From the NCBI GenBank assembly GCA_037783545.1, contig JBBELK010000296.1:338979-402978 (forward strand): a stretch of DNA of 64,000 nt, read 5' to 3'. The notes beneath the pieces are model-generated. The model made no database searches. It was not told the DNA's origin and saw nothing but the letters and a program-made list of their open reading frames with translations. This DNA is from Henricia sp. BOLD:AAB3569. Taxonomy: Eukaryota > Echinodermata > Asteroidea > Spinulosida > Echinasteridae. Shown here in pieces: positions 17,401-46,015 of the stretch (its first letter is position 1; each line of letters begins with the position of its first letter). Made by a program: the position numbers and the translations under genes.

Positions 17401-18099
17401 CTTTCGGGAAACATTGCGTCTGAAGCGTTCGCTATTTTGGAACTGAAGGAATTTCCAGACAAACTTCAAATTTGTCCTGCTTAAACAACTCTATATCCCA
17501 AACGTGTTCTGTAAATTTCAGCAATTTCCCGTTTAAACCGACCGAGTTATCGCCGAATCTAGCAAAATATCCCTGCCGGCACAGTTTTCGCACAAACAGA
17601 CGCCGCATTCGGAAAACATTGCGTATGAAGTGGTCGCTATTTTGGAACTGAAGGAATTTCCAGACAAACTTCAAATTTTGCCTGCTTAAACAACTCTATA
17701 TCCCAAACGTGTTCTGCAAATTTCAGCAATTTCCCGTTTAAACCGATCGAGTTATGGACGAAACTAGCAAAAACTCCCTGCCGGCACATTTTTTGCACAG
17801 GCATACGCCGCTTTCGATAAACATTGCGTCTGAAGCGGTCGCTATTTTGGAACTGAAGGAATTTCCAGACAAACTTCAAATTTTGCCTGCTTAACCCTTT
17901 CATTCCCGGAGGCGCCAAAAGGAGCCCTTTGTTTTTTTCGCTTTAATCCCAAAGGCACCAAATGGTGCCCGAGATTGTCTTTCAGTTGAGACCCAAGGCG
18001 ACTTTTGTCACCACCTGCAAATGCTTTCAGAGTTTTTTGGTTTGGCGCCCTCTATTGGCATGAATGAAGACGGTTCAAGTTTTACACGCGCGCCCGCCC

Positions 18100-18107
18100 T
18101 ATATAAA
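18100..18107 (+). promoter_or_regulatory. TATA box of transposase copy 1
   Basis: TATATAAA lies 98 bp upstream of the proposed start codon at 18,205, directly after a GC-rich stretch (CGCGCGCCCGCCC). It is conserved in all four copies. The spacing suggests transcription starting near 18,130. Confidence 0.6.
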
Positions 18108-18204
18108 TTCACAAAACTAAAAAGGGACAACAATAGGGTGGGTTTGCCGGGAATACATAAAAGGGGAGGACGCACAGTACAGACGCCATTTGCATCCTGA
18201 AACT

Positions 18205-20451
18205 ATGATGGCAACAGACGTCGATGGCATGTTGGCCGAAATTTTGGCAGACAGTGGCTCAGAATCAGATGAAGGTTCCATTCAAGATGAGTCTTCTGAC
18301 GACGATCCCGAAACGGCAGAAGACGGCATTACTGCAGCATTTCGTGAGGTAATAATGGAATTCGGTAATAATTAATACTAATTCTTTGGTGAACATTATC
18401 AGCAGCATGATCGGTGTTATGTTAATGAATCAATTAGGCTAATGTAATTCGCCAGGCCCAGTATTTTTGTAGGCCCACCCCTAACGTCGGCCTATATAGG
18501 TCTATGGGGTTACAAATGCTGAAATTGAGAAATGTACATCATTACATGTAGTTAAAAAATGGCTCAATCAGTCTTGGTGACCAAATCCCTCCCCCCCCCC
18601 CCTCCCCCCCTCTGAAAATCTGAAAGTAATTACCAACATTCCTACAACACAAAAGAAGGGGGCTGTCCCGCTTGCCAAATATCTTGCAAATGCTATAAGC
18701 TGCTTTGAAAGAAATGAGGAAATTTGCATCTTCAAAATTTCGCATAAAATTGAACAGTTATTGGCAACGACCTTAATAGAGGGTGCCATTTTTTTCTTGT
18801 TTCCTTGTTTGCAACTACAAAGATTATACTCTAATGTTATAGTTTGTTTTTGTTGCAGCTTACCGACCAACCTGACCACCTGCCAAAATCGAGCAAGACT
18901 GCGAAGGTAGATTTCCGATCCGGTTGGGAGCAACGAGACCATTTCCAGTGTCCGACTGTGCCCTTCACGGGGAATCCTGGCCCGACCGGCGACTTTGCTA
19001 CGCTCTCAGCAGTGGAGATCTTCAAGCTGTATTTCTGTGACCTTGTGTGGCAGATGCTGGTGAACGAGACTAATCGCTATGCGCAACAAACAATAGACTC
19101 TAACCCTGATAAACAAGTTTCCTGGCACCCGACCAATATTCCAGAAATGATGGCATTTGTGGCACTTATCGTTGCTATGGGCATGAACAAATCATCTCAA
19201 TATAGAATGTACTGGTCGACATCTGAACTGTTTAGCTTGCCATTCTATCCGTCGATCATGTCACGCAATCGGTTCCTTTCAATTCTGAGATTCTTTCACA
19301 TATCCAATAACCAAATTGCTCAGACAGCCTCGGCTAAACGTGATAAACTTTCCAAAGTTCGACCCTTGATAGAAGTACTCGTCCCGAAGTTTCTAAACCT
19401 GTATAACCCTGCGCAGAATTTGTCTCCAGACGAGAGCATGTTAAAATTCAAGGGACGATTAAGTTTTGTTCAGTACATGCCGAAAAAACCAATCAAACGG
19501 GGTATGAAAGCCTTCTCCCTGAATGAATCAAAAACAGGGTACACATGTAATTGGAAACTATACACGGGAAGTGAGAACACCCAAACTGTTTATGTTGCAC
19601 ACATAAGTTCAGACTGCCCGCATCCAAACATACTGACCAAGCCCGCAAAATTAGTCATTGATCTGGTCCAGGGACTTGAGAATAAGGGTCATATACTATA
19701 TTGTGACAATTACTTCAATAGCCCAGCTCTTGTAGCTGAACTGTCTGAACTAGGATTCGGGTGTTGTGGTACTGTTCGGTACATGACCCAGGGGATTCCC
19801 CATGTTGCGAACCCCAAAAAACACAAAATGAAGAGAGAAGATGTCCCCCTTTTTTGGGTAAAAGGTGGGCAGTTGTGTATCGTTTGGCAAGACAAAAAAT
19901 CGGTAACACTTTTAACAAATATCGGGAACTCTGATGTGTCAAAAAAGCAAATTCGTTGCAAGAAGAGCACAAGTGGATTTCGTGACGTTCTGAAGCCAAA
20001 TTGTGTTGACCTGTATAATTTGAATATGGGAGGTACTGATGTTGCAGATCAATGTTTTCAGTACTACAATCATACGCACAGGAGTTTAAAATGGTGGAAA
20101 CGAATTTTTTTCCGTATGCTCGATATTTGTATTGTCAATAGCCGAGTAATTTTTAACGGCATAGAGGGCAACAGACATGTCAGTAACCTAGATTTTCGTG
20201 TAGGTATTGTACAAGGCTTGCTGTTAGGTTGGGAACGTACTAATGCAACAAGTCGGCCGAGATACCACATTCCTATTGATTTGGCAAGACAACAACACTA
20301 TCCTGGCAAAAACCGCAATGGAAAGAAACGCGACTGCATTGTTTGTAGCAACCGCACATTAAACAGGCGAAAACAGACCCGGATGATCTGTAAAGAATGT
20401 AATAAACCAATGTGCACAGTTCCTTGTTTTGAAAAATATCATACCAAATGA
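18205..20451 (+). CDS. piggyBac transposase, copy 1 (spliced, 578 aa)
   Basis: DDE-type piggyBac transposase; the family excises and integrates at TTAA without leaving footprints. I infer two exons, 18,205-18,348 and 18,859-20,451, joined in phase 0. The donor is CGTGAG|GTAATA and the acceptor TTTTTGTTGCAG|CTTACC. The start is the first ATG of ATGATGGCAACA, downstream of a TATA box. Exon 1 encodes an acidic, Ser/Glu/Asp-rich N-terminus of 48 residues. Exon 2 has the catalytic aspartates in SPDESM (D239), YCDNYF (D331) and MGGTDVADQ (D442, with D445 nearby). It ends in a Cys/His-rich domain (CIVCSN, CKECN, MCTVPCFEKYH), which is the usual C-terminal zinc-binding module that contacts the element ends. 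Length is normal for the family and the frame is unbroken. Residue 258 is Pro here (KKPIKRG) and Thr in copies 2 and 3. It is the only long plus-strand gene of the unit. Confidence 0.9.
18349..18858 (+). other. Transposase intron, copy 1
   Basis: A 510-bp GT..AG intron separates the acidic N-terminal exon from the catalytic exon. It holds a C tract near 18,590-18,608 whose length varies among copies (introns of 510, 518, 514 and 511 bp). The acceptor is preceded by a T-rich tract (GTTTGTTTTTGTTGCAG). Stops lie between the two open frames, so splicing is needed to produce the full enzyme. Confidence 0.75.
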
Positions 20452-20498
20452 TAAGTATGTATATGTACAATCTGCTCGCCTTCAAATCTGCCCCCGCC

Positions 20499-20583
20499 CC
20501 CCGCCCCCCACCCCATTCAATGTTGAAGACTGGTTCGACAAGCCACGGATTCAAACCAACATTGAATGGGGTGGGGGGCGGGG
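20499..20583. repeat. 26-bp perfect hairpin in transposase 3' UTR, copy 1
   Basis: The arms at 20,499-20,524 and 20,558-20,583 are perfect inverted repeats of 26 bp around a 33-nt loop. The outer part is C/G-tract (CCCCGCCCCCCACCCC) and the inner part is ATTCAATGTT. It begins 48 bp after the stop codon and would form a very stable RNA stem or DNA cruciform. The same structure sits at 29,048-29,132 and 37,585-37,669. Confidence 0.9.
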
Positions 20584-20830
20584 AGGGGGAGGGGCGAGAG
20601 AAAATACAAGTACATGCAGAAGTAGGGTTGAAGACACATCTTTTTAGACATTCAAGCATTTTTAATTTCTTAGATTTTTAACTTTTGAGTGCTTCATTTT
20701 CTTTTGTATTGTATACTTTTTAGGTATTTTCATTAGGATTTTCTTTTCTATATTGATGTACGAGTACAGGGCCTTGTATTACCAGTTTGTATTACTTTTG
20801 TTGTGTAAAAACTAGCTTGAAATTACACTT

Positions 20831-20836
20831 AATAAA
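20831..20836 (+). promoter_or_regulatory. Polyadenylation signal, transposase copy 1
   Basis: AATAAATAAA follows the transposase stop by about 380 bp, before the right piggyBac end. This is a plausible signal for 3' end formation inside the element. Confidence 0.5.
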
Positions 20837-21550
20837 TAAAAAGATGCACACTAAATTTCTCTTCTTTTTGTATGATTTGTGTCATCAGGTGTACACAAAA
20901 TCATCAGAGCTATTTAGTGCATGTAAACCACAGAGGGCTCACTTCAATGAAATGTCTCCCAAACCAGTGGGTCTCTAGTGACACTGGGCTCGTAATTGCT
21001 GTGGTAAACAAGGGTACTGTCTTATATGAGTGGGTGGTATTGAAAGGGTTAAACAGTTCACTAGTTTTTATTGAAGACCTGCATAAATTTCTTTCTCTTG
21101 GGCATTTAAGACGTTTTTTATTTGAGAAAGCTAGTGCATTAATGAACAGTAGCATTCAACTCTGAATTAACTTCTCAGTTAAACATGTTATTGACTATTG
21201 TAGACAATCTGTTATTCATAGTGGCAACATGCAACAATTATTTCTTTCACAAGTTGTAGGTTTTCCAAACAAGTGGTTTTCAAACCTGCACAACTTTTGT
21301 GGAAGATATTTTAGTCACATGGTGGCAATCATTGAAGACTGTCCGAAAATATAATTTTATCATAAATGTCTATATTGGATTAATCTGTATTTCATGAAAA
21401 GAAGTAAACAATAAATGAATAAATTGACAAGTCACCGACAGATTCTTGTGCACATTTCATTTGTAAGTTTTAATTTCTATTTTGACATTATGCATAGCCT
21501 ACACACTTATAATGCACATTACACTTTATTTATATTGATGACCTCATAAA

Positions 21551-21952
21551 ACATATGCGATGCAATCGAGCAAAATGAGTCGTAAGTCGGGATTTCTGAT
21601 TTTGAAATATAGACCATAATGTGAGCTTGGGCTGGATTTTTCAGCATTAGGAAACTATCCATCTTTCACACAGTGAAAACAAATATGATTTTTGGAAGGG
21701 AACAGGTAAAAAGTGAGTTTTCAAAAGTGGGCTTTTTAACGACTCCATGCAATACTATAACTTTAAACCTGATTTTCTCTCTTTCCGTACTTTCAATGTG
21801 TCCTAACTCCACGCCATAACTTTTGAACCAAAAGTCGTACCAATTTGGAGTTTCCACCAAATTAAAGCTTAAAGTGCCCTTGAAATGAAAATATAACTAA
21901 AAAGTGACCAGTTTTGACTTAAGACTCATTTTGCCCGATCGCATCACATATA
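21551..21952. repeat. Fold-back element 1, copy 1
   Basis: Imperfect inverted arms of about 38 bp (21,551-21,588 and 21,915-21,952) share GAGCAAAATGAGTC..TAAGTC around a 326-bp centre. It resembles a MITE or the end of a palindromic replicon. No gene is seen in it. Confidence 0.8.
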
Positions 21953-22287
21953 AGCTATTCATTAAATTTTCGGTATACTTGGCAATATGATCGAGACTTT
22001 TAGAGTTAAGTTATTTTTTGCCTTTATTCGGTAGCTTGTCATAGTTTGGTTGTTTTTACAATGGTCACTTCATAATGTGGCTTAAAATTAGCCGGTGTGA
22101 CTTGTTTCTAGTTTTGTTGGAAATGGTCACATTGATAAATTGTATTCATACATTGTTTTTTCAATTTTCTTGATTAACATCTGAAAAACAAAATTAAATT
22201 ACTACCGGTATATTGTACCACACATTTTCTAAAGAACATAAAATTTGTTTTCAACTATACACACAATTCCAAAATACACCCCTTTCC

Positions 22288-22649
22288 TACTCTCTAAATG
22301 TAAAAGAGTGAAAAACTCACTCTTCAAAAGAGTGACTCCCTTAAAAAACCACTCGGAAACAGTGAAAATCACTCTAAAAAGAGGGAAATTTTGTAAAAAG
22401 AGTGGCAATCACTCCAAAAAGAGTGCCAAAACCACTCAAAGAAGGAGCCATATAAAGGACAGCTCTTTTTCGAGCTGTCCTTTATATGGCTCCTTCTTTG
22501 AGTGGTTTTTGCACTCTTTTTGGAGTGATTGCCACTCTTTTTACAGAATTTCCCTCTTTTTAGAGTGATTTTCACTGTTTCCGAGTGGTTTTATAAGGGA
22601 GTCACTCTTTTGAAGAGTGAGTTTTTCATTCTTTTACATTTAGAGAGTA
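22288..22649. repeat. 362-bp near-perfect palindrome, copy 1
   Basis: Two arms of about 178 bp are nearly perfect inverted repeats around a centre reading GACAGCTCTTTTTCGAGCTGTC at about 22,460-22,480. The arms are rich in the motif AAAGAGTG/CACTCTTT, repeated about ten times per arm, so the hairpin could also fold into many small stems. Short reading frames on both strands here are palindrome artefacts. It is the longest palindrome in the unit and the best candidate for a hairpin terminus or replication structure. Confidence 0.95.
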
Positions 22650-22699
22650 CCCTTATAATTTTGGTTCTAATGGTGTTTGGTTGGGTGTATATTTGCACA

Positions 22700-22848
22700 G
22701 GTAGTATACACCCTTTGCAAACAAGAAACAAACAGTGAATTACTATTAAACTTGTACATTTGGTGAATCATAATATGAATCCCCCCCCCCCCCCCATATA
22801 TCGCCCCCATTGTATAAATTCAAGCAAGAGCAAAGGGTGTATACTACC
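22700..22848. repeat. Short inverted repeat with C tract, copy 1
   Basis: Perfect 19-bp arms (GGTAGTATACACCCTTTGC and its complement) lie at 22,700-22,718 and 22,830-22,848. A run of 16 C lies between them and varies in length among units. It has the look of a small MITE. Confidence 0.75.
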
Positions 22849-22977
22849 TTGAAACCACCTGGCAGTGAGAATATTTGTGAGACATTCTGGCAACATTGAT
22901 TCCAAACTGGGCACAGGCTGCAGTGGAGAAAAAGGAAAAACAATTAAATATGGGTTTCGGTCATTTAGGGTGTAACA

Positions 22978-23270
22978 TTGTGAATGGCCTGGATGTGATG
23001 TTTCTACAAAAATGGAAAGGCGACTTTCATGGATGTGATTTTGGTGGATATTACCCAATACCACATTCACACCCGAGCCAGAAATCACATCCAGGATTAT
23101 GTCGTTCAAGTCCAATATCATCCTGTGTAATTGAACCTGGATGTGATTTTTGGCTCGGATGTGATTTTGGATAATTGCTGCCAAAATCACATTCTAGCTC
23201 CAATATTGCATCCACTAAAACCACCTTTCCATTTTTGTAGAGAAATCACACCCAGGCCATCCACAGTGTA
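22978..23270. repeat. Imperfect palindrome with GGATGTGATT repeats, copy 1
   Basis: The outer arms (GGCCTGGATGTGATGTTTCT and a near-complement at about 23,240-23,260) enclose several direct and inverted copies of GGATGTGATTTTGG. It is a compound fold-back of about 293 bp, ending about 200 bp from the stop codon of the Rep gene. Confidence 0.85.
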
Positions 23271-24225
23271 AGATTGTTGGAGGTTTGTATTCTGTCTATT
23301 CTTTTTAAAGTATCTGCAAATCCTGCACCCTTCCCTTCTTCTGTCTCAAGTTGCCAGAATGGCACACATTTTCTGTTATCACTGCTAAATTAACGCATTT
23401 GAGCATGTTGCACAAACAAAAATTCACAAATATTAATGTTTAAAAATGATTGCAAACAGTCATTCGAGTAGTACTTAATGGTCGTCTACATGTACGTCAC
23501 TAATATTATCCAGTATGAAATGTGCGAAGCAAAATTTACAGGGACCTATATCCTTTTGTTGTTCTTGTGGAATTTGATACGAAAATGTGAATGTGTTCCA
23601 TCTGACTGTCATCATTTCTGTTTCACGAAAATCTATCGACCCCCCAGTAATGTAAACCAAGGGCTGCTTTCCAGTGCAAAATATGGGAGTATCTTTATCA
23701 AAAACGAGGTCTTTTGCATAATAACTCTTGGGTGCAGGCAGATGGACTGTTTGACCTTCTAAAAGAAGCAGCATGTCATTCCAAGGCAAGACTTGTGCAG
23801 TCCAACGAAAATCATTAAGAAACACAACCTCACTAGTTTCTGCTCCAACCCAGGCAAATGAACCTGTTGCTGGATTAGTAAAGGTTTTGAATACGGTATT
23901 TAATGGATTCAATAAAAAAGTTTTTCCGCAATTTGCTGGCCCGGTTATCATTATATTTCGATATTTTCCTCTCCCCTTTTGTAACAACAAATATATGCCA
24001 TTTACAAATGTACTTATCTCAATGTTATTTTGTTCCAGTATTTCTCGAGCACAGTCAAGCCACACCCCATTGCAATTACAGCCAGCTGGTGTAGCTGCAA
24101 CCTCACAAAGAACCTCAATTCTTGTATGCGAATCCCGTTCGAGCTGTTCTGGCGCTCCATGTAGATCCCAAGCATTCTGTGAATACATAATTAGATACAT
24201 TAATATGTAAATAAGACTGGTAACG

Positions 24226-24497
24226 AAGGGAGGGGTGTGGGGGGTGGGGTGAGGGGTGTGGGGGTGGGGTGAGGGGGGGGGGGGGGGGTGAGGGGGGTTG
24301 GGGGGGGGGGGGGGGGGTGGTGGGGGTCCTGGGGGGCAGGGTTGATGGGGGGACGAAGAGGAAGGAGGAATGGGGTGGGGACTGTCAGAATGAGGGGAGG
24401 GGGTGGGTGCGGTGGGTGGTTGTGGAATAGGTGGGGTGGGGGCTGGTGGGGGGGGGGAGGGGGTGGAGGGAGGGGAGGGGGAGGGGGGAGGGGGGTG
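24226..24497 (+). repeat. G-rich tract in the Rep intron, copy 1
   Basis: About 270 bp of GGGGTG, GGGGAG and G-run sequence on the plus strand (C-rich on the Rep sense strand). It has many runs of three or more G and could form G-quadruplexes. Length varies among copies. Reading frames through it are Gly/Trp/Arg artefacts. Confidence 0.9.
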
Positions 24498-24528
24498 ATG
24501 AAATAGAGAAATGAAAAACTAGGGCATG

Positions 24529-24737
24529 TATGGCTATACTATAGCCATAGGGCTAGTAGTAGCTAGTGTAGTAGCACTAAGTACATGTACTAAGTACCTA
24601 TTTCCCTCGGCCTTCGGCCTCGGGAAATAGGACCCTCTTGTGGTCACTCACAGTCCCTCGGGGCCCATAGACGTGCACTAGTGACCTCATTGCCAGTCGA
24701 TGTGTATACTAGTAGTAGTACTGTACTACTACTACTA
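24529..24737. repeat. Cluster of small palindromes in the Rep intron, copy 1
   Basis: Within about 200 bp lie several hairpin-capable motifs. They are TATGGCTATACTATAGCCATA (one mid-base off perfect) at 24,529-24,549, AGTACATGTACT at 24,579-24,590, a TATTTCCC..GGGAAATA stem at 24,599-24,629, and a GTAGTAGTAC/GTACTACTAC stem at 24,711-24,737. No coding potential is visible. Confidence 0.7.
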
Positions 24738-24936
24738 CGATGCAGACACACGCTGACACAGTAAACTCTAGGTGGCCGTGGCGGCACCCTGCCGATCAAC
24801 ATGCGTTAAAATATAATTTTCAACCGCTATACTTTAAACTTACTATTTACAGTTGGTGAAACCCCCATGTCGTGCTTGAGAATGAGAGACTGTATTCCTT
24901 GCCTAAAACCTTAACCCAAATCAGGCATCAGGCCCG

Positions 24937-24993
24937 TTATGTAAACAATATGCACGCGTAAGCGTGCTGCACGGCCCGGTATTGTTTACATAA
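24937..24993. repeat. Nested stem-loop (candidate replication origin), copy 1
   Basis: A perfect 14-bp stem (TTATGTAAACAATA and its complement) encloses a second hairpin, GCACGCGTAAGCGTGC, giving a T-shaped fold. It is identical in all three full units (33,483-33,539 and 42,130-42,186). Rep proteins of the HUH class nick at or near such hairpins, so it is a candidate origin. The nick site itself cannot be told from the sequence. Confidence 0.75.
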
Positions 24994-25900
24994 GAGGCGC
25001 CCTCTTTCGTTATCAACGGGTACACGCAAACTTTTATAAAAGAGGAAGGTTGTGGCCTCCTCTCGAGATGTACATGTACACATTGTGTACTTCATTGAAC
25101 AAAGTGATTTAATTGGATAAAATGTTGAAATGATTTGGCTAAGAGTCCCCATACATAGATCGAGTACCACATTTTGTACACTATAAACCGAAATAAGCAA
25201 TGCAAATTCTACTATAATTATATAAAAGGGCATACCTGTATTACTTCGTTTATGGCCTTTTGGCCGCGGTTGATAATGAACCGAGCCAGATCCGTACGCC
25301 CTGCGACTTCTGTAGATTAGCAAAGGCCATCAGTTCCAAGCGCGTCCTGAACCCCTTCTCGACAACAATTTCTGAAACGTCATACGAAGTCAGTCGCGTA
25401 CGACCACGCCCACGCCCACGCCCACGCCACGCCCACGAGCTGACAACTTGTCTTCCGATGATGGGTGCTGCTCGGATGTAGTTGGCTGTAATGTTGCTTT
25501 TGAGGCATTATCAGTCACGGGTAACCCCAAATCAGGATGACCAATTGACTGTATCAACTCACTGTCCTCTTTCGTAATATAATTCCACGCACTATAATAA
25601 TTATGGTGGTTAGACGAAAAGTGTACATTTATGCCATATACTCGGGATAAATACTTGCGAATTTGGACCCAACGTTGGGTTTTTTTCAAGTTTTATACAC
25701 AAATGGTAGTGTTTTCCGCCATTTCTATGCGACTCTTGACAGCAGGCCCACTGAATCACTTTTGCCACACCACACAAATTGAAAGCATCGACTATTTTAG
25801 TAGCAAAATTCTCACGAGTTGGAACTATTTCTAAATTGGCTTGGCTATACGTTATCAAATAAACTTGGCGAACCTGTCGAGGTCCCAACTCGGCTGACAT

Positions 25901-26432
25901 TATCAACGAAAAACGGAGGAGACAGACGGGACGGACGATGCAACATGCTCAAATGCGTTATGACTCTTGGCTTACACGAACGGCCGTTGTTATGTGTAGA
26001 AGGAGCCGATAGGATGGCGTTTATTCAAATTCGACCGGCAGGCAAGAATAATGGCACGTTTGTTCTCCCCACATACCAATTACGTCAAGCGTTACACGTT
26101 CACGTGAGGGTCCTGGGTATACTAGTTGACCGCAGAAAAGCACGCACCGACCCACTTCGCCAAGTGAACCCAAAACTTCACCAAATACTTAACCCAAAAC
26201 TTTACCAACTTTACCCCAAATCCCATTAAAACATGCACACGGTTGTCCATTTCAAGACATTAAAGCTTTGACTCTGAAAGTCTTTTAACCTTAAATGTTT
26301 ACTGGTAAACCGACAAACTTTACCAATAATCCTGTAAATAGGTTAAACACGTGGTTCTTAACTTCATTAGCCTAACAAAACAAGTCTCACACACGCATTC
26401 CATTCTGTCAAAACACAATGTGAAACATGCCA
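25901..26432. other. Gene-free stretch upstream of Rep copy 1
   Basis: This is the 5' flank of the Rep gene up to the next piggyBac end. It includes A/C-rich degenerate repeats of CCAAAACTT and TTTACC at 26,168-26,225. I see no clear TATA box on the minus strand and no reading frame that looks coding. The promoter of the Rep gene should lie here. Confidence 0.5.
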
Positions 26433-26641
26433 TTAACCCTTTCATTCCCGGAGGCGCCAAAAGGAGCCCTTTGTTTTTTTCGCTTTAATCCCAAAGGCAC
26501 CAAATGGTGCCCGAGATTGTCTTTCAGTTGAGACCCAAGGCGACTTTTGTCACCACCTGCAAATGCTTTCAGAGTTTTTTGGTTTGGCGCCCTCTATTGG
26601 CATGAATGAAGACGGTTCAAGTTTTACACGCGCGCCCGCCC

Positions 26642-26649
26642 TATATAAA
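26642..26649 (+). promoter_or_regulatory. TATA box of transposase copy 2
   Basis: TATATAAA lies 97 bp upstream of the ATG at 26,746, in the same context as copy 1. Confidence 0.6.
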
Positions 26650-26745
26650 TTCACAAAACTAAAAAGGGACAACAATAGGTGGGTTTGCCGTGAATACATA
26701 AAAGGGGAGGACGCACAGTACAGACGCCATTTGCATCCTGAAACT

Positions 26746-29000
26746 ATGATGGCAACAGACGTCGATGGCATGTTGGCCGAAATTTTGGCAGACAGTGGCT
26801 CAGAATCAGATGAAGGTTCCATTCAAGATGAGTCTTCTGACGACGATCCCGAAACGGCAGAAGACGGCATTACTGCAGCATTTCGTGAGGTAATAATGGA
26901 ATTCGGTAATAATTAATACTAATTCTTTGGTGAACATTATCAGCAGCATGATCGGTGTTATGTTAATGAATCAATTAGGCTAATGTAATTCGCCAGGCCC
27001 AGTATTTTTGTAGGCCCACCCCTAACGTCGGCCTATATAGGTCTATGGGGTTACAAATGCTGAAATTGAGAAATGTACATCATTACATGTAGTTAAAAAA
27101 TGGCTCAATCAGTCTTGGTGACCAAATCCCTCCCCCCCCCCCCCCCCACCCTCCCCCCCTCTGAAAATCTGAAAGTAATTACCAACATTCCTACAACACA
27201 AAAGAAGGGGGCTGTCCCGCTTGCCAAATATCTTGCAAATGCTATAAGCTGCTTTGAAAGAAATGAGGAAATTTGCATCTTCAAAATTTCGCATAAAATT
27301 GAACAGTTATTGGCAACGACCTTAATAGAGGGTGCCATTTTTTTCTTGTTTCCTTGTTTGCAACTACAAAGATTATACTCTAATGTTATAGTTTGTTTTT
27401 GTTGCAGCTTACCGACCAACCTGACCACCTGCCAAAATCGAGCAAGACTGCGAAGGTAGATTTCCGATCCGGTTGGGAGCAACGAGACCATTTCCAGTGT
27501 CCGACTGTGCCCTTCACGGGGAATCCTGGCCCGACCGGCGACTTTGCTACGCTCTCAGCAGTGGAGATCTTCAAGCTGTATTTCTGTGACCTTGTGTGGC
27601 AGATGCTGGTGAACGAGACTAATCGCTATGCGCAACAAACAATAGACTCTAACCCTGATAAACAAGTTTCCTGGCACCCGACCAATATTCCAGAAATGAT
27701 GGCATTTGTGGCACTTATCGTTGCTATGGGCATGAACAAATCATCTCAATATAGAATGTACTGGTCGACATCTGAACTGTTTAGCTTGCCATTCTATCCG
27801 TCGATCATGTCACGCAATCGGTTCCTTTCAATTCTGAGATTCTTTCACATATCCAATAACCAAATTGCTCAGACAGCCTCGGCTAAACGTGATAAACTTT
27901 CCAAAGTTCGACCCTTGATAGAAGTACTCGTCCCGAAGTTTCTAAACCTGTATAACCCTGCGCAGAATTTGTCTCCAGACGAGAGCATGTTAAAATTCAA
28001 GGGACGATTAAGTTTTGTTCAGTACATGCCGAAAAAAACAATCAAACGGGGTATGAAAGCCTTCTCCCTGAATGAATCAAAAACAGGGTACACATGTAAT
28101 TGGAAACTATACACGGGAAGTGAGAACACCCAAACTGTTTATGTTGCACACATAAGTTCAGACTGCCCGCATCCAAACATACTGACCAAGCCCGCAAAAT
28201 TAGTCATTGATCTGGTCCAGGGACTTGAGAATAAGGGTCATATACTATATTGTGACAATTACTTCAATAGCCCAGCTCTTGTAGCTGAACTGTCTGAACT
28301 AGGATTCGGGTGTTGTGGTACTGTTCGGTACATGACCCAGGGGATTCCCCATGTTGCGAACCCCAAAAAACACAAAATGAAGAGAGAAGATGTCCCCCTT
28401 TTTTGGGTAAAAGGTGGGCAGTTGTGTATCGTTTGGCAAGACAAAAAATCGGTAACACTTTTAACAAATATCGGGAACTCTGATGTGTCAAAAAAGCAAA
28501 TTCGTTGCAAGAAGAGCACAAGTGGATTTCGTGACGTTCTGAAGCCAAATTGTGTTGACCTGTATAATTTGAATATGGGAGGTACTGATGTTGCAGATCA
28601 ATGTTTTCAGTACTACAATCATACGCACAGGAGTTTAAAATGGTGGAAACGAATTTTTTTCCGTATGCTCGATATTTGTATTGTCAATAGCCGAGTAATT
28701 TTTAACGGCATAGAGGGCAACAGACATGTCAGTAACCTAGATTTTCGTGTAGGTATTGTACAAGGCTTGCTGTTAGGTTGGGAACGTACTAATGCAACAA
28801 GTCGGCCGAGATACCACATTCCTATTGATTTGGCAAGACAACAACACTATCCTGGCAAAAACCGCAATGGAAAGAAACGCGACTGCATTGTTTGTAGCAA
28901 CCGCACATTAAACAGGCGAAAACAGACCCGGATGATCTGTAAAGAATGTAATAAACCAATGTGCACAGTTCCTTGTTTTGAAAAATATCATACCAAATGA
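26746..29000 (+). CDS. piggyBac transposase, copy 2 (spliced, 578 aa)
   Basis: Exons 26,746-26,889 and 27,408-29,000, joined in phase 0 across a 518-bp intron that contains a long C tract. In copies 2, 3 and 4 the open frame of exon 1 extends upstream to an ATG at 26,563. That extension covers the TATA box, so I prefer the downstream ATG. Domains are as in copy 1: an acidic N-terminus (residues 1-48), the DDE core with D239, D331 and D442, and the C-terminal Cys-rich domain (about 540-578). Residue 258 is Thr (KKTIKRG). No stops or frameshifts, so the copy is potentially active. The Rep-like gene of the same unit is convergent to it. Confidence 0.9.
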
Positions 29001-29047
29001 TAAGTATGTATATGTACAATCTGCTCGCCTTCAAATCTGCCCCCGCC

Positions 29048-29379: not shown

Positions 29380-29385
29380 AATAAA
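29380..29385 (+). promoter_or_regulatory. Polyadenylation signal, transposase copy 2
   Basis: AATAAATAAA downstream of the stop, inside the element, as in copy 1. Confidence 0.5.
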
Positions 29386-35182: not shown

Positions 35183-35190
35183 TATATAAA
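35183..35190 (+). promoter_or_regulatory. TATA box of transposase copy 3
   Basis: TATATAAA 97 bp upstream of the ATG at 35,287. Confidence 0.6.
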
Positions 35191-35286
35191 TTCACAAAAC
35201 TAAAAAGGGACAACAATAGGTGGGTTTGCCGTGAATACATAAAAGGGGAGGACGCACAGTACAGACGCCATTTGCATCCTGAAACT

Positions 35287-37537
35287 ATGATGGCAACAGA
35301 CGTCGATGGCATGTTGGCCGAAATTTTGGCAGACAGTGGCTCAGAATCAGATGAAGGTTCCATTCAAGATGAGTCTTCTGACGACGATCCCGAAACGGCA
35401 GAAGACGGCATTACTGCAGCATTTCGTGAGGTAATAATGGAATTCGGTAATAATTAATACTAATTCTTTGGTGAACATTATCAGCAGCATGATCGGTGTT
35501 ATGTTAATGAATCAATTAGGCTAATGTAATTCGCCAGGCCCAGTATTTTTGTAGGCCCACCCCTAACGTCGGCCTATATAGGTCTATGGGGTTACAAATG
35601 CTGAAATTGAGAAATGTACATCATTACATGTAGTTAAAAAATGGCTCAATCAGTCTTGGTGACCAAATCCCTCCCCCCCCCCCCCCCCTCCCCCCCTCTG
35701 AAAATCTGAAAGTAATTACCAACATTCCTACAACACAAAAGAAGGGGGCTGTCCCGCTTGCCAAATATCTTGCAAATGCTATAAGCTGCTTTGAAAGAAA
35801 TGAGGAAATTTGCATCTTCAAAATTTCGCATAAAATTGAACAGTTATTGGCAACGACCTTAATAGAGGGTGCCATTTTTTTCTTGTTTCCTTGTTTGCAA
35901 CTACAAAGATTATACTCTAATGTTATAGTTTGTTTTTGTTGCAGCTTACCGACCAACCTGACCACCTGCCAAAATCGAGCAAGACTGCGAAGGTAGATTT
36001 CCGATCCGGTTGGGAGCAACGAGACCATTTCCAGTGTCCGACTGTGCCCTTCACGGGGAATCCTGGCCCGACCGGCGACTTTGCTACGCTCTCAGCAGTG
36101 GAGATCTTCAAGCTGTATTTCTGTGACCTTGTGTGGCAGATGCTGGTGAACGAGACTAATCGCTATGCGCAACAAACAATAGACTCTAACCCTGATAAAC
36201 AAGTTTCCTGGCACCCGACCAATATTCCAGAAATGATGGCATTTGTGGCACTTATCGTTGCTATGGGCATGAACAAATCATCTCAATATAGAATGTACTG
36301 GTCGACATCTGAACTGTTTAGCTTGCCATTCTATCCGTCGATCATGTCACGCAATCGGTTCCTTTCAATTCTGAGATTCTTTCACATATCCAATAACCAA
36401 ATTGCTCAGACAGCCTCGGCTAAACGTGATAAACTTTCCAAAGTTCGACCCTTGATAGAAGTACTCGTCCCGAAGTTTCTAAACCTGTATAACCCTGCGC
36501 AGAATTTGTCTCCAGACGAGAGCATGTTAAAATTCAAGGGACGATTAAGTTTTGTTCAGTACATGCCGAAAAAAACAATCAAACGGGGTATGAAAGCCTT
36601 CTCCCTGAATGAATCAAAAACAGGGTACACATGTAATTGGAAACTATACACGGGAAGTGAGAACACCCAAACTGTTTATGTTGCACACATAAGTTCAGAC
36701 TGCCCGCATCCAAACATACTGACCAAGCCCGCAAAATTAGTCATTGATCTGGTCCAGGGACTTGAGAATAAGGGTCATATACTATATTGTGACAATTACT
36801 TCAATAGCCCAGCTCTTGTAGCTGAACTGTCTGAACTAGGATTCGGGTGTTGTGGTACTGTTCGGTACATGACCCAGGGGATTCCCCATGTTGCGAACCC
36901 CAAAAAACACAAAATGAAGAGAGAAGATGTCCCCCTTTTTTGGGTAAAAGGTGGGCAGTTGTGTATCGTTTGGCAAGACAAAAAATCGGTAACACTTTTA
37001 ACAAATATCGGGAACTCTGATGTGTCAAAAAAGCAAATTCGTTGCAAGAAGAGCACAAGTGGATTTCGTGACGTTCTGAAGCCAAATTGTGTTGACCTGT
37101 ATAATTTGAATATGGGAGGTACTGATGTTGCAGATCAATGTTTTCAGTACTACAATCATACGCACAGGAGTTTAAAATGGTGGAAACGAATTTTTTTCCG
37201 TATGCTCGATATTTGTATTGTCAATAGCCGAGTAATTTTTAACGGCATAGAGGGCAACAGACATGTCAGTAACCTAGATTTTCGTGTAGGTATTGTACAA
37301 GGCTTGCTGTTAGGTTGGGAACGTACTAATGCAACAAGTCGGCCGAGATACCACATTCCTATTGATTTGGCAAGACAACAACACTATCCTGGCAAAAACC
37401 GCAATGGAAAGAAACGCGACTGCATTGTTTGTAGCAACCGCACATTAAACAGGCGAAAACAGACCCGGATGATCTGTAAAGAATGTAATAAACCAATGTG
37501 CACAGTTCCTTGTTTTGAAAAATATCATACCAAATGA
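35287..37537 (+). CDS. piggyBac transposase, copy 3 (spliced, 578 aa)
   Basis: Exons 35,287-35,430 and 35,945-37,537 with a 514-bp intron. The protein appears identical to copy 2, including Thr at residue 258, so copies 2 and 3 are closest relatives. The catalytic aspartates D239, D331 and D442 and the C-terminal Cys-rich domain are present and the frame is open, so this copy too may be active. Confidence 0.9.
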
Positions 37538-37584
37538 TAAGTATGTATATGTACAATCTGCTCGCCTTCAAATCTGCCCCCGCC

Positions 37585-37669
37585 CCCCGCCCCCCACCCC
37601 ATTCAATGTTGAAGACTGGTTCGACAAGCCACGGATTCAAACCAACATTGAATGGGGTGGGGGGCGGGG
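37585..37669. repeat. 26-bp perfect hairpin in transposase 3' UTR, copy 3
   Basis: Identical to the hairpin in copies 1 and 2. Confidence 0.9.
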
Positions 37670-37916
37670 AGGGGGAGGGGCGAGAGAAAATACAAGTACA
37701 TGCAGAAGTAGGGTTGAAGACACATCTTTTTAGACATTCAAGCATTTTTAATTTCTTAGATTTTTAACTTTTGAGTGCTTCATTTTCTTTTGTATTGTAT
37801 ACTTTTTAGGTATTTTCATTAGGATTTTCTTTTCTATATTGATGTACGAGTACAGGGCCTTGTATTACCAGTTTGTATTACTTTTGTTGTGTAAAAACTA
37901 GCTTGAAATTACACTT

Positions 37917-37922
37917 AATAAA
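37917..37922 (+). promoter_or_regulatory. Polyadenylation signal, transposase copy 3
   Basis: AATAAATAAA as in copies 1 and 2. Confidence 0.5.
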
Positions 37923-38636
37923 TAAAAAGATGCACACTAAATTTCTCTTCTTTTTGTATGATTTGTGTCATCAGGTGTACACAAAATCATCAGAGCTATT
38001 TAGTGCATGTAAACCACAGAGGGCTCACTTCAATGAAATGTCTCCCAAACCAGTGGGTCTCTAGTGACACTGGGCTCGTAATTGCTGTGGTAAACAAGGG
38101 TACTGTCTTATATGAGTGGGTGGTATTGAAAGGGTTAAACAGTTCACTAGTTTTTATTGAAGACCTGCATAAATTTCTTTCTCTTGGGCATTTAAGACGT
38201 TTTTTATTTGAGAAAGCTAGTGCATTAATGAACAGTAGCATTCAACTCTGAATTAACTTCTCAGTTAAACATGTTATTGACTATTGTAGACAATCTGTTA
38301 TTCATAGTGGCAACATGCAACAATTATTTCTTTCACAAGTTGTAGGTTTTCCAAACAAGTGGTTTTCAAACCTGCACAACTTTTGTGGAAGATATTTTAG
38401 TCACATGGTGGCAATCATTGAAGACTGTCCGAAAATATAATTTTATCATAAATGTCTATATTGGATTAATCTGTATTTCATGAAAAGAAGTAAACAATAA
38501 ATGAATAAATTGACAAGTCACCGACAGATTCTTGTGCACATTTCATTTGTAAGTTTTAATTTCTATTTTGACATTATGCATAGCCTACACACTTATAATG
38601 CACATTACACTTTATTTATATTGATGACCTCATAAA

Positions 38637-39038
38637 ACATATGCGATGCAATCGAGCAAAATGAGTCGTAAGTCGGGATTTCTGATTTTGAAATATAGAC
38701 CATAATGTGAGCTTGGGCTGGATTTTTCAGCATTAGGAAACTATCCATCTTTCACACAGTGAAAACAAATATGATTTTTGGAAGGGAACAGGTAAAAAGT
38801 GAGTTTTCAAAAGTGGGCTTTTTAACGACTCCATGCAATACTATAACTTTAAACCTGATTTTCTCTCTTTCCGTACTTTCAATGTGTCCTAACTCCACGC
38901 CATAACTTTTGAACCAAAAGTCGTACCAATTTGGAGTTTCCACCAAATTAAAGCTTAAAGTGCCCTTGAAATGAAAATATAACTAAAAAGTGACCAGTTT
39001 TGACTTAAGACTCATTTTGCCCGATCGCATCACATATA
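38637..39038. repeat. Fold-back element 1, copy 3
   Basis: Equivalent of 21,551-21,952. Confidence 0.8.
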
Positions 39039-39373
39039 AGCTATTCATTAAATTTTCGGTATACTTGGCAATATGATCGAGACTTTTAGAGTTAAGTTAT
39101 TTTTTGCCTTTATTCGGTAGCTTGTCATAGTTTGGTTGTTTTTACAATGGTCACTTCATAATGTGGCTTAAAATTAGCCGGTGTGACTTGTTTCTAGTTT
39201 TGTTGGAAATGGTCACATTGATAAATTGTATTCATACATTGTTTTTTCAATTTTCTTGATTAACATCTGAAAAACAAAATTAAATTACTACCGGTATATT
39301 GTACCACACATTTTCTAAAGAACATAAAATTTGTTTTCAACTATACACACAATTCCAAAATACACCCCTTTCC

Positions 39374-39735
39374 TACTCTCTAAATGTAAAAGAGTGAAAA
39401 ACTCACTCTTCAAAAGAGTGACTCCCTTAAAAAACCACTCGGAAACAGTGAAAATCACTCTAAAAAGAGGGAAATTTTGTAAAAAGAGTGGCAATCACTC
39501 CAAAAAGAGTGCCAAAACCACTCAAAGAAGGAGCCATATAAAGGACAGCTCTTTTTCGAGCTGTCCTTTATATGGCTCCTTCTTTGAGTGGTTTTTGCAC
39601 TCTTTTTGGAGTGATTGCCACTCTTTTTACAGAATTTCCCTCTTTTTAGAGTGATTTTCACTGTTTCCGAGTGGTTTTATAAGGGAGTCACTCTTTTGAA
39701 GAGTGAGTTTTTCATTCTTTTACATTTAGAGAGTA
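39374..39735. repeat. 362-bp near-perfect palindrome, copy 3
   Basis: Equivalent of 22,288-22,649. Confidence 0.95.
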
Positions 39736-40061
39736 CCCTTATAATTTTGGTTCTAATGGTGTTTGGTTGGGTGTATATTTGCACAGGTAGTATACACCCT
39801 TTGCAAACAAGAAACAAACAGTGAATTACTATTAAACTTGTACATTTGGTGAATCATAATATGAATCCCCCCCCCCCCCATATATCGCCCCCATTGTATA
39901 AATTCAAGCAAGAGCAAAGGGTGTATACTACCTTGAAACCACCTGGCAGTGAGAATATTTGTGAGACATTCTGGCAACATTGATTCCAAACTGGGCACAG
40001 GCTGCAGTGGAGAAAAAGGAAAAACAATTAAATATGGGTTTCGGTCATTTAGGGTGTAACA

Positions 40062-40354
40062 TTGTGAATGGCCTGGATGTGATGTTTCTACAAAAATGGA
40101 AAGGCGACTTTCATGGATGTGATTTTGGTGGATATTACCCAATACCACATTCACACCCGAGCCAGAAATCACATCCAGGATTATGTCGTTCAAGTCCAAT
40201 ATCATCCTGTGTAATTGAACCTGGATGTGATTTTTGGCTCGGATGTGATTTTGGATAATTGCTGCCAAAATCACATTCTAGCTCCAATATTGCATCCACT
40301 AAAACCACCTTTCCATTTTTGTAGAGAAATCACACCCAGGCCATCCACAGTGTA
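40062..40354. repeat. Imperfect palindrome with GGATGTGATT repeats, copy 3
   Basis: Equivalent of 22,978-23,270. The C tract of the small inverted repeat before it is two bases shorter than in unit 1. Confidence 0.85.
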
Positions 40355-40558
40355 AGATTGTTGGAGGTTTGTATTCTGTCTATTCTTTTTAAAGTATCTG
40401 CAAATCCTGCACCCTTCCCTTCTTCTGTCTCAAGTTGCCAGAATGGCACACATTTTCTGTTATCACTGCTAAATTAACGCATTTGAGCATGTTGCACAAA
40501 CAAAAATTCACAAATATTAATGTTTAAAAATGATTGCAAACAGTCATTCGAGTAGTAC

Positions 40559-43088
40559 TTAATGGTCGTCTACATGTACGTCACTAATATTATCCAGTAT
40601 GAAATGTGCGAAGCAAAATTTACAGGGACCTATATCCTTTTGTTGTTCTTGTGGAATTTGATACGAAAATGTGAATGTGTTCCATCTGACTGTCATCATT
40701 TCTGTTTCACGAAAATCTATCGACCCCCCAGTAATGTAAACCAAGGGCTGCTTTCCAGTGCAAAATATGGGAGTATCTTTATCAAAAACGAGGTCTTTTG
40801 CATAATAACTCTTGGGTGCAGGCAGATGGACTGTTTGACCTTCTAAAAGAAGCAGCATGTCATTCCAAGGCAAGACTTGTGCAGTCCAACGAAAATCATT
40901 AAGAAACACAACCTCACTAGTTTCTGCTCCAACCCAGGCAAATGAACCTGTTGCTGGATTAGTAAAGGTTTTGAATACGGTATTTAATGGATTCAATAAA
41001 AAAGTTTTTCCGCAATTTGCTGGCCCGGTTATCATTATATTTCGATATTTTCCTCTCCCCTTTTGTAACAACAAATATATGCCATTTACAAATGTACTTA
41101 TCTCAATGTTATTTTGTTCCAGTATTTCTCGAGCACAGTCAAGCCACACCCCATTGCAATTACAGCCAGCTGGTGTAGCTGCAACCCCATAGTCGAGATT
41201 AGATACATTTTTGTTATAGTATTTCTGTCCAACTGGCGCTCCATGTAGATCCCAAGCATTCTGTGAATACATAATTAGATACATTAATATGTAAATAAGA
41301 CTGGTAACGAAGGGAGGGGTGTGGGGGGTGGGGTGAGGGGTGTGGGGGTGGGGTGAGGGGGGGGGGTGAGGGGGGTTGGGGGGGGGGGGGGGGGTGGTGG
41401 GGGTCCTGGGGGGCAGGGTTGATGGGGGGACGAAGAGGAAGGAGGAATGGGGTGGGGACTGTCAGAATGAGGGGAGGGGGTGGGTGCGGTGGGGTGGTTG
41501 TGGAATAGGTGGGGTGGGGGCTGGTGGGGGGGGGAGGGGTGGAGGGAGGGGAGGGGGAGGGGGGAGGGGGGTGATGAAATAGAGAAATGAAAAACTAGGG
41601 CATGTATGGCTATACTATAGCCATAGGGCTAGTAGTAGCTAGTGTAGTAGCACTAAGTACATGTACTAAGTACCTATTTCCCTCGGCCTTCGGCCTCGGG
41701 AAATAGGACCCTCTTGTGGTCACTCACAGTCCCTCGGGGCCCATAGACGTGCACTAGTGACCTCATTGCCAGTCGATGTGTATCCTCGATCCTCCATATT
41801 CTGCGCACCTAACGCTTATGCACGCGCGCGCATTGGCCGGCAAACATTAATGTGAGTGCGTAGAAATAGGACCGCGTGGATTTAGGGGGTCTGACGATAT
41901 ACTAGTAGTAGTACTGTACTACTACTACTACGATGCAGACACACGCTGACACAGTAAACTCTAGGTGGCCGTGGCGGCACCCTGCCGATCAACATGCGTT
42001 AAAATATAATTTTCAACCGCTATACTTTAAACTTACTATTTACAGTTGGTGAAACCCCCATGTCGTGCTTGAGAATGAGAGACTGTATTCCTTGCCTAAA
42101 ACCTTAACCCAAATCAGGCATCAGGCCCGTTATGTAAACAATATGCACGCGTAAGCGTGCTGCACGGCCCGGTATTGTTTACATAAGAGGCGCCCTCTTT
42201 CGTTATCAACGGGTACACGCAAACTTTTATAAAAGAGGAAGGTTGTGGCCTCCTCTCGAGATGTACATGTACACATTGTGTACTTCATTGAACAAAGTGA
42301 TTTAATTGGATAAAATGTTGAAATGATTTGGCTAAGAGTCCCCATACATAGATCGAGTACCACATTTTGTACACTATAAACCGAAATAAGCAATGCAAAT
42401 TCTACTATAATTATATAAAAGGGCATACCTGTATTACTTCGTTTATGGCCTTTTGGCCGCGGTTGATAATGAACCGAGCCAGATCCGTACGCCCTGCCGA
42501 CTTCTGTAGATTAGCAAAGGCCATCAGTTCCAAGCGCGTCCTGAACCCCTTCTCGACAACAATTTCTGAAACGTCATACGAAGTCAGTCGCGTACGACCA
42601 CGCCCACGCCCACGCCCACGCCCACGAGCTGACAACTTGTCTTCCGATGATGGGTGCTGCTCGGATGTAGTTGGCTGTAATGTTGCTTTTGAGGCATTAT
42701 CAGTCACGGGTAACCCCAAATCAGGATGACCAATTGACTGTATCAACTCACTGTCCTCTTTCGTAATATAATTCCACGCACTATAATAATTATGGTGGTT
42801 AGACGAAAAGTGTACATTTATGCCATATACTCGGGATAAATACTTGCGAATTTGGACCCAACGTTGGGTTTTTTCAAGTTTTATACACAAATGGTAGTGT
42901 TTTCCGCCATTTCTATGCGACTCTTGACAGCAGGCCCACTGAATCACTTTTGCCACACCACACAAATTGAAAGCATCGACTATTTTAGTAGCAAAATTCT
43001 CACGAGTTGGAACTATTTCTAAATTGGCTTGGCTATACGTTATCAAATAAACTTGGCGAACCTGTCGAGGTCCCAACTCGGCTGACAT
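40559..43088 (-). CDS. Rep-like HUH endonuclease-SF3 helicase, copy 3 (variant, 453 aa)
   Basis: Exons 42,429-43,088 and 40,559-41,260, with splice sites as in copy 2 and a 1168-bp intron. The HUH, catalytic-Tyr and SF3 motifs all match copy 2. Residues 230-245, just after the exon junction, are entirely different (VGQKYYNKNVSNLDYG against EQLERDSHTRIEVLCE). The total length is unchanged and the frame is kept. The block is 41,187-41,233 (47 bp), while the rest of the gene is almost identical. The segment lies between the endonuclease and helicase domains, so activity may survive. Gene conversion from a diverged relative is the simplest explanation. Confidence 0.85.
41311..41572 (+). repeat. 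G-rich tract in the Rep intron, copy 3
   Basis: Same tract as in the other units; its first half has fewer G in the longest runs. Confidence 0.9.
41784..41900. other. 117-bp insertion unique to unit 3
   Basis: Units 1 and 2 read CGATGTGTATACTAGTAG. In unit 3 this is split after GTGTAT by 117 bp that include alternating GCGCGCGC (CACGCGCGCGCATTGG). There is no clear target duplication or inverted repeat. It may be the ancestral state lost from units 1 and 2, or a later insertion. Confidence 0.8.
42130..42186. repeat. Nested stem-loop (candidate replication origin), copy 3
   Basis: Identical to 24,937-24,993 and 33,483-33,539. Confidence 0.75.
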
Positions 43089-43829
43089 TATCAACGAAAA
43101 ACGGAGGAGACAGACGGGACGGACGATGCAACATGCTCAAATGCGTTATGACTCTTGGCTTACACGAACGGCCGTTTTTATGTGTAGAAGGAGCCGATAG
43201 GATGGCGTTTATTCAAATTCGACCGGCAGGCAAGAATAATGGCACGTTTGTTCTCCCCACATACCAATTACGTCAAGCGTTACACGTTCACGTGAGGGTC
43301 CTGGGTATACTAGTTGACCGCAGAAAAGCACGCACCGACCCACTTCGCCAAGTGAACCCAAAACTTCACCAAATACTTAACCCAAAACTTTACCAACTTT
43401 ACCCCAAATCCCATTAAAACATGCACACGGTTGTCCATTTCAAGACATTAAAGCTTTGACTCTGAAAGTCTTTTAACCTTAAATGTTTACTGGTAAACCG
43501 ACAAACTTTACCAATAATCCTGTAAATAGGTTAAACACGTGGTTCTTAACTTCATTAGCCTAACAAAACAAGTCTCACACACGCATTCCATTCTGTCAAA
43601 ACACAATGTGAAACATGCCATTAACCCTTTCATTCCCGGAGGCGCCAAAAGGAGCCCTTTGTTTTTTTCGCTTTAATCCCAAAGGCACCAAATGGTGCCC
43701 GAGATTGTCTTTCAGTTGAGACCCAAGGCGACTTTTGTCACCACCTGCAAATGCTTTCAGAGTTTTTTGGTTTGGCGCCCTCTATTGGCATGAATGAAGA
43801 CGGTTCAAGTTTTACACGCGCGCCCGCCC

Positions 43830-43837
43830 TATATAAA
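43830..43837 (+). promoter_or_regulatory. TATA box of transposase copy 4
   Basis: TATATAAA in the same position as in the other copies. Confidence 0.5.
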
Positions 43838-43933
43838 TTCACAAAACTAAAAAGGGACAACAATAGGTGGGTTTGCCGTGAATACATAAAAGGGGAGGAC
43901 GCACAGTACAGACGCCATTTGCATCCTGAAACT

Positions 43934-46015
43934 ATGATGGCAACAGACGTCGATGGCATGTTGGCCGAAATTTTGGCAGACAGTGGCTCAGAATCAGATG
44001 AAGGTTCCATTCAAGATGAGTCTTCTGACGACGATCCCGAAACGGCAGAAGACGGCATTACTGCAGCATTTCGTGAGGTAATAATGGAATTCGGTAATAA
44101 TTAATACTAATTCTTTGGTGAACATTATCAGCAGCATGATCGGTGTTATGTTAATGAATCAATTAGGCTAATGTAATTCGCCAGGCCCAGTATTTTTGTA
44201 GGCCCACCCCTAACGTCGGCCTATATAGGTCTATGGGGTTACAAATGCTGAAATTGAGAAATGTACATCATTACATGTAGTTAAAAAATGGCTCAATCAG
44301 TCTTGGTGACCAAATCCCTCCCCCCCCCCCCCTCCCCCCCTCTGAAAATCTGAAAGTAATTACCAACATTCCTACAACACAAAAGAAGGGGGCTGTCCCG
44401 CTTGCCAAATATCTTGCAAATGCTATAAGCTGCTTTGAAAGAAATGAGGAAATTTGCATCTTCAAAATTTCGCATAAAATTGAACAGTTATTGGCAACGA
44501 CCTTAATAGAGGGTGCCATTTTTTTCTTGTTTCCTTGTTTGCAACTACAAAGATTATACTCTAATGTTATAGTTTGTTTTTGTTGCAGCTTACCGACCAA
44601 CCTGACCACCTGCAAAATCGAGCAAGACTGCGAAGGTAGATTTCCGATCCGGTTGGGAGCAACGAGACCATTTCCAGTGTCCGACTGTGCCCTTCACGGG
44701 GAATCCTGGCCCGACCGGCGACTTTGCTACGCTCTCAGCAGTGGAGATCTTCAAGCTGTATTTCTGTGACCTTGTGTGGCAGATGCTGGTGAACGAGACT
44801 AATCGCTATGCGCAACAAACAATAGACTCTAACCCTGATAAACAAGTTTCCTGGCACCCGACCAATATTCCAGAAATGATGGCATTTGTGGCACTTATCG
44901 TTGCTATGGGCATGAACAAATCATCTCAATATAGAATGTACTGGTCGACATCTGAACTGTTTAGCTTGCCATTCTATCCGTCGATCATGTCACGCAATCG
45001 GTTCCTTTCAATTCTGAGATTCTTTCACATATCCAATAACCAAATTGCTCAGACAGCCTCGGCTAAACGTGATAAACTTTCCAAAGTTCGACCCTTGATA
45101 GAAGTACTCGTCCCGAAGTTTCTAAACCTGTATAACCCTGCGCAGAATTTGTCTCCAGACGAGAGCATGTTAAAATTCAAGGGACGATTAAGTTTTGTTC
45201 AGTACATGCCGAAAAAACCAATCAAACGGGGTATGAAAGCCTTCTCCCTGAATGAATCAAAAACAGGGTACACATGTAATTGGAAACTATACACGGGAAG
45301 TGAGAACACCCAAACTGTTTATGTTGCACACATAAGTTCAGACTGCCCGCATCCAAACATACTGACCAAGCCCGCAAAATTAGTCATTGATCTGGTCCAG
45401 GGACTTGAGAATAAGGGTCATATACTATATTGTGACAATTACTTCAATAGCCAGCTCTTGTAGCTGAACTGTCTGAACTAGGATTCGGGTGTTGTGGTAC
45501 TGTTCGGTACATGACCCAGGGGATTCCCCATGTTGCGAACCCCAAAAAACACAAAATGAAGAGAGAAGATGTCCCCCTTTTTTGGGTAAAAGGTGGGCAG
45601 TTGTGTATCGTTTGGCAAGACAAAAAATCGGTAACACTTTTAACAAATATCGGGAACTCTGATGTGTCAAAAAAGCAAATTCGTTGCAAGAAGAGCACAA
45701 GTGGATTTCGTGACGTTCTGAAGCCAAATTGTGTTGACCTGTATAATTTGAATATGGAGGTACTGATGTTGCAGATCAATGTTTTCAGTACTACAATCAT
45801 ACGCACAGGAGTTTAAAATGGTGGAAACGAATTTTTTTCCGTATGCTCGATATTTGTATTGTCAATAGCCGAGTAATTTTTAACGGCATAGAGGGCAACA
45901 GACATGTCAGTAACCTAGATTTTCGTGTAGGTATTGTACAAGGCTTGCTGTTAGGTTGGGAACGTACTAATGCAACAAGTCGGCCGAGATACCACATTCC
46001 TATTGATTTGGCAAG
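43934..46015 (+). pseudogene. piggyBac transposase, copy 4 (frameshifted and truncated)
   Basis: Exon 1 (43,934-44,077) is intact. Exon 2 begins at 44,589 and carries three one-base deletions relative to the other copies: a C near 44,613, a C near 45,451 (AATAGCCAGC against AATAGCCCAGC), and a G near 45,757 (ATATGGAGG against ATATGGGAGG). It then ends at the array breakpoint, about 45 codons before the normal stop, losing the C-terminal Cys-rich domain. The second lesion falls just after the second catalytic Asp. All are in short homopolymers. It has Pro at residue 258, like copy 1. Confidence 0.85.

Follow-up and report, generated by a model that had tools for sequence, protein, structure and literature searches.

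A tandem array in the genome of Henricia sp. BOLD:AAB3569 joins a piggyBac transposon to a segment encoding a predicted Rep protein, in which an SF3 helicase domain sits behind a HUH nuclease. All evidence on the array was drawn from one 64,000-nt stretch of contig JBBELK010000296.1 (the window). Self-comparison placed the array at 17891-46015, with both limits exact, and divided it into three full units and a truncated fourth arranged head to tail (Table 1). In each full unit, an intact TTAA-bounded piggyBac, whose transposase is predicted to have two exons, is joined to a 5.4-kb segment that encodes the Rep, likewise predicted to have two exons. The composite is real and is a new combination of known parts; joint working of its two halves is unproven. 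The initial annotation had described an intact piggyBac and a spliced HUH-SF3 Rep in every full unit. The composite is confirmed, but Rep exon 1 is frame-broken in unit 1 and the gene is altered in unit 3.

Structure of the composite units

The copies are nearly identical. Substitutions between units 1 and 2, counted in aligned bases with small indels coming on top, number 0 in 5371 bases for the Rep segment and 2 in 3161 for piggyBac. On the same count, units 2 and 3 differ at 0 of 3165 bases in piggyBac and 24 of 5358 in the Rep segment, mostly within a single patch about 50 bases long. Every junction between units is the same, and the near-identical head-to-tail copies with one fixed junction seen in the initial annotation are borne out. 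Unit 3 has two private features. The replaced patch (41187-41238) lies in the Rep helicase exon and leaves the frame open, and the Rep intron is longer by about 115 bases (about 41784-41898). The patch has no long match elsewhere in the window, and the extra bases have no match longer than 12 bases within it. Because of these private features, the unit copies are considered real. An assembly artefact, with an error in the unit count, in the right junction or in the inverted satellite beyond it, is very improbable. The right junction is odd, and the frame-breaking single-base indels in units 1 and 4 resemble consensus errors and may be sequencing or consensus errors; however, the private features require at least two kinds of unit, and the junction between units is identical each time.

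Members of the piggyBac superfamily are described as having terminal inverted repeats of 12-19 bp that begin with CCYT (PMC5601938). In the window the ends begin with CCCT; 8 bases match unbroken, and similarity is weak beyond them. Both ends of the unit 1 copy read CCCTTTCA, and TTAA is present at both ends of all three full copies. Left ends are located at 17891, 26433, 34974 and 43621 (no mismatches to the end pattern) and right ends at 21052, 29601 and 38138 (one mismatch each). These are exactly the matches in the window at up to two mismatches. The chance mean was 3.55, and seven or more matches occurred in 6 of 100 shuffles, so the weight of the seven ends comes from their register and low mismatch counts and not from their number. 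The 538-residue piggyBac frame matches DDE_Tnp_1_7 (4.5e-77, profile positions 1-348 of 349) and zf-Tnp_2 (4.2e-07). Among solved structures it matches piggyBat (7.8e-63) and a second transposase, 6x67 (5.2e-25), which we take to be the piggyBac transposase itself. Three aspartates align with aspartates of piggyBat that are presumably catalytic. All three full units keep the main frame open, and in unit 1 both exons are open in frame with predicted in-frame splice sites. The two splice-site strings occur four times each in the window, once per copy. The fourth piggyBac has a broken frame and breaks off after 2395 of the roughly 3160 bp of a full copy.

Rep was identified mainly by predicted structure. 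Compared with the Protein Data Bank (PDB), the predicted fold of exon 1 is a HUH nuclease of the geminivirus/redondovirus type, and that of exon 2 is an SF3 helicase of the parvovirus/papillomavirus type. The folds are the same, but Rep has less than about 21% sequence identity to those PDB entries and combines both types in one gene, a combination that recalls the RepE1 cressviruses. The Pfam families proposed in the initial annotation fit unevenly: DDE_Tnp_1_7 is a strong match for the transposase, but those named for Rep match weakly (Parvo_NS1, 0.12). The nuclease has a YxxK motif, and the two Rep splice-site strings occur three times each in the window, once per copy. Since both exons of unit 2 are in frame and open, with nuclease and helicase motifs retained, the sequence indicates that Rep was recently coding, and it was presumably active.

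A HUH tree of 64 rows puts the window together with P0139, P0121, P0122 and P0124 (100/97) within an 11-row group (98/89). Of 106 HUH matches, 26 have the motif pattern; 15 of these run on into the helicase side and 11 do not. Six of these 11 (P0121, P0122, P0123, P0124, P0125 and P0135) stop at the window's donor position with a valine, and the other five have no clean stop there. A terminal valine is what a GT donor read in frame would give. These proteins suggest a spliced Rep sub-clade sharing the window's intron, the motif being present in only that minority of matches.

RepE1 cressviruses, which have been reported from sea anemones, are described as carrying a Rep that resembles papillomavirus E1 and as forming high-copy, rearranged integrations in marine invertebrates (PMC11071296). 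The likeness of the window Rep to RepE1 is one of description, by the E1-type helicase and the host groups, and not of sequence comparison. The published viruses have capsid genes, and the portion of the text available describes them in conjunction with retrotransposon-like sequences and makes no mention of piggyBac (PMC11071296).

Satellite DNA of 205-bp monomers lies to the left of the array. The string GCCTGCTTAA is exact in 44 monomers and is followed by ACAACTCTATAT in 44 of 44. The next in-register monomer reaches the TTAA at 17891 and there turns into the piggyBac end. Because the satellite monomer switches to the piggyBac end exactly at TTAA, the left array edge is a piggyBac integration site in the satellite. 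The array lies to the right of this edge; therefore, either the composite moved on outer piggyBac ends or a solo piggyBac gained units by recombination. In the latter case, a lone piggyBac would have inserted in the satellite and then received 8.5-kb units, circular or linear, by homologous recombination between piggyBac copies. This would account for the left piggyBac end and for the head-to-tail register with piggyBac flanking each Rep segment, but no circular form is known, and the right end, where the resident piggyBac should meet the satellite, is lost. We consider such a history improbable.

Table 1. Positions of array components and flanking satellites in the window.
Feature	Positions	Strand	Length or basis
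Array, three full units and truncated fourth	17891..46015		self-comparison
Unit 1, Rep exon 1 frame-broken	17891..26432		8542 bp
Unit 2, frames of all four exons open	26433..34973		8541 bp
Unit 3, helicase-exon patch and longer Rep intron	34974..43620		8647 bp
Fourth unit, partial; piggyBac cut short, frame broken	43621..46015	+	self-comparison, frame check
piggyBac, unit 1, TTAA to TTAA	17891..21052	+	end-pattern scan
piggyBac, unit 2	26433..29601	+	end-pattern scan
piggyBac, unit 3	34974..38138	+	end-pattern scan
piggyBac transposase exon 1 (predicted), unit 1, 48 aa	18205..18348	+	open frame, donor site
piggyBac transposase exon 2, unit 1, 530 aa and stop	18859..20451	+	Pfam, splice check
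Rep exon 1, HUH nuclease, unit 2, 220 aa	33782..34441	-	Gemini_AL1 0.0014; predicted fold; splice check
Rep intron (predicted), unit 2, with G/C-rich microsatellite	32726..33781	-	splice-site strings
Rep exon 2, SF3 helicase, unit 2, 233 aa and stop	32024..32725	-	PPV_E1_C 0.026, Parvo_NS1 0.12; predicted fold
Rep exon 1, unit 3, open	42429..43088	-	frame and splice check
Rep exon 2, unit 3, open, replaced patch	40559..41260	-	frame and unit comparison
Rep exon 1, unit 1, frame broken	25236..25900	-	frame check
Rep exon 2, unit 1, open	23475..24176	-	frame check
362-bp palindrome	22288..22649; also 30837-31198, 39374-39735		all three full units
Small hairpin in Rep intron, best of unit 2	33483..33539		folding z -5.3
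205-bp satellite left of array; TTAA at 17891 holds piggyBac end	1..17890	+	repeat scan
205-bp satellite, inverted, right of array	46102..49257	-	repeat scan

Recurrence of the pairing

Comparison with relatives listed in a public protein set suggests that the piggyBac-Rep pairing recurs at least once, at about 50% protein identity; usually it is not seen. The top HUH match, P0121 (50% identity), is listed on a 22,564-bp ENA contig, and the piggyBac match P0231 (53%, fifth in its list) is likewise listed on a 22,564-bp contig. Their putative co-location is read from the equal sizes in a listing that gives only the longest contig per protein cluster. At least one size match at 5 kb or more arose in 2.0% of jittered trials with 58 HUH and 60 piggyBac contigs. 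The corresponding chance was 0.09% for the 3 HUH and 7 piggyBac contigs of at least 5 kb in the window's clades, a subset picked after the trees had been seen. Both trees place the 22,564-bp contig in the window's clade, of 5 rows for HUH and of 14 rows for piggyBac. The closest piggyBac, P0236 (74-75%), is on a 13,352-bp contig, and no listed Rep has an equal size. Listed helicase matches and piggyBac matches have sizes of 1487 and 2386 bp in common, probably by chance. Rep queries against IMG/VR and GTDB genomes and a piggyBac query against IMG/VR yielded no confirmed relative.

A recurring pair could reflect a lasting partnership of a piggyBac integrase with a RepE1-type nickase-helicase in at least two animal lineages, in which Rep would make the concatemers and piggyBac-Rep-piggyBac insertions would enter at TTAA. 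We regard this two-engine element as unlikely.

Origin of the array

We lean, tentatively, toward a composite transposon, in which the piggyBac transposase would have seated the array at a satellite TTAA and recombination or Rep would have multiplied the units. The RepE1-like rep gene lies in a segment that holds a piggyBac at a TTAA. Head-to-tail repetition of this 8.5-kb unit leaves a piggyBac copy on either side of each Rep segment, so that the array looks like a composite transposon. To place the array at the satellite TTAA, the transposase would have used the left end of the first copy together with, originally, the right end of the last one; the left edge of this placement is observed, and the two-ended move is presumed, the right end being lost. 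The units would have multiplied head to tail either as copies recombined with one another or through rolling-circle concatemers driven by Rep. The near-identity of the copies, if recent, fits rolling-circle concatemers or unequal crossing-over alike. Rolling-circle amplification, which the initial annotation had suggested, is thus not singled out, as the shape of the array fits unequal crossing-over or recombination between piggyBac copies equally well.

Several findings weigh against the composite-transposon origin. The right edge is cut inside piggyBac and continues into 86 unplaced bases (46016-46101) and then inverted satellite. The Rep copies of unit 1 (frame broken) and unit 3 (replaced patch) are altered. 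Among the relatives, 22,564 bp is the sole size common to the HUH and piggyBac lists, no piggyBac match equals in size the long contigs (18,309, 14,464 and 10,000 bp) that carry the next Rep relatives, and the window and the 22,564-bp contig are sisters in neither tree.

The rest of the 5.4-kb segment also bears on its history. The arms of the 362-bp palindrome are 98% complementary (folding z -38), with TA at each end. Because of the TA at both ends, the palindrome is probably a nested fold-back insertion rather than an origin; TA is self-complementary, so the terminal TA could belong to the palindrome itself. A second fold-back at 22975-23269, with 70-base arms that are 81% complementary, lies beside the Rep 3' end and adjoins the palindrome. 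Both look like nested miniature inverted-repeat transposable elements, and the segment would therefore have spent time as ordinary chromosomal DNA. Neither fold-back, nor the stretch 21053-22288, has a match at E 0.01 in 49301-64000. Unit 2 was searched for a nonanucleotide stem-loop of the circular Rep-encoding single-stranded (CRESS) DNA virus type and yielded no convincing example. No capsid gene candidate was found among array frames of at least 120 aa, smaller frames being outside the scan. Three unassigned array frames had no Pfam match at E 1, and one of them (34978-35457, +) overlaps piggyBac exon 1. As the larger frames include no capsid candidate, the segment is best called replicon-like or transposon-like, not a virus.

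Chance nesting is a serious, if doubtful, alternative to the composite transposon. One piggyBac would have jumped into a chromosomal Rep segment, and unequal crossing-over would have amplified the locus, the two halves not cooperating. Near-identical tandem copies require no special enzyme, the fold-backs resemble nested insertions as expected of old chromosomal DNA, and almost no other Rep relative shares its size with a piggyBac match. Such an event does not readily explain why the array begins on its left with a piggyBac end set in satellite and lacks host flank of an original locus there, why the 22,564-bp size recurs for both halves, or why Rep is still open in unit 2.

Other features of the flanks were also recorded. 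The 86 bases right of the array have no convincing match in the window; as a candidate piggyBac 3' remnant they were rejected, since their score was reached by 26 of 300 shuffles. The inverted satellite starts about 5 bases short of the monomer TTAA, near the position hit at the left edge. A few shortened monomers of 131 bp are present in the 205-bp satellite (5556-5819, 9788-10051 and 10944-11207). Further right are a tRNA gene or tRNA-like sequence (53081-53153, minus strand; 46.5 bits, Rfam) and a 414-bp tandem repeat (59944-61017; 2.6 copies, 91% matches). Ten of the 44 right-flank frames of at least 70 aa were without a Pfam match at E 0.01.

Related elements and significance

Teratorn, a piggyBac-herpesvirus fusion of medaka (PMC5601938), had been named as a precedent and is the nearest published kind of fusion. 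As described, Teratorn and the window both join piggyBac to a replicating virus-like partner, with a TTAA target and an open transposase. Unlike Teratorn, the window has a small Rep segment as partner and tandem units, and the terminal repeats of each unit enclose the transposase only. Rep would therefore move only if the ends of neighbouring piggyBac copies were used together. Enclosure of the partner's genes by piggyBac repeats, not the case within a unit, is possible for the outermost copies, of which the right end is lost. Replitrons likewise place a HUH enzyme in a eukaryotic transposable element; a review describes them as ending in short direct repeats and occurring in plants and algae. 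Among the papers listed by a literature search, with most subscription journals outside its reach, none showed a piggyBac joined to a Rep-type replicon.

According to a 2023 review, the copy number of Rep-bearing viral elements can be as high as about a thousand in certain species. The review gives the Rep endonuclease as their supposed means of integration, one not confirmed by experiment. A Rep gene coupled to a DDE transposase offers another route of integration. If the composite transposon is the correct interpretation, other copies are predicted to have piggyBac ends on the outside, Rep segments within and TTAA duplications. The composite would also widen the range of piggyBac-virus fusions, taking it from giant herpesviruses down to a small replicon.

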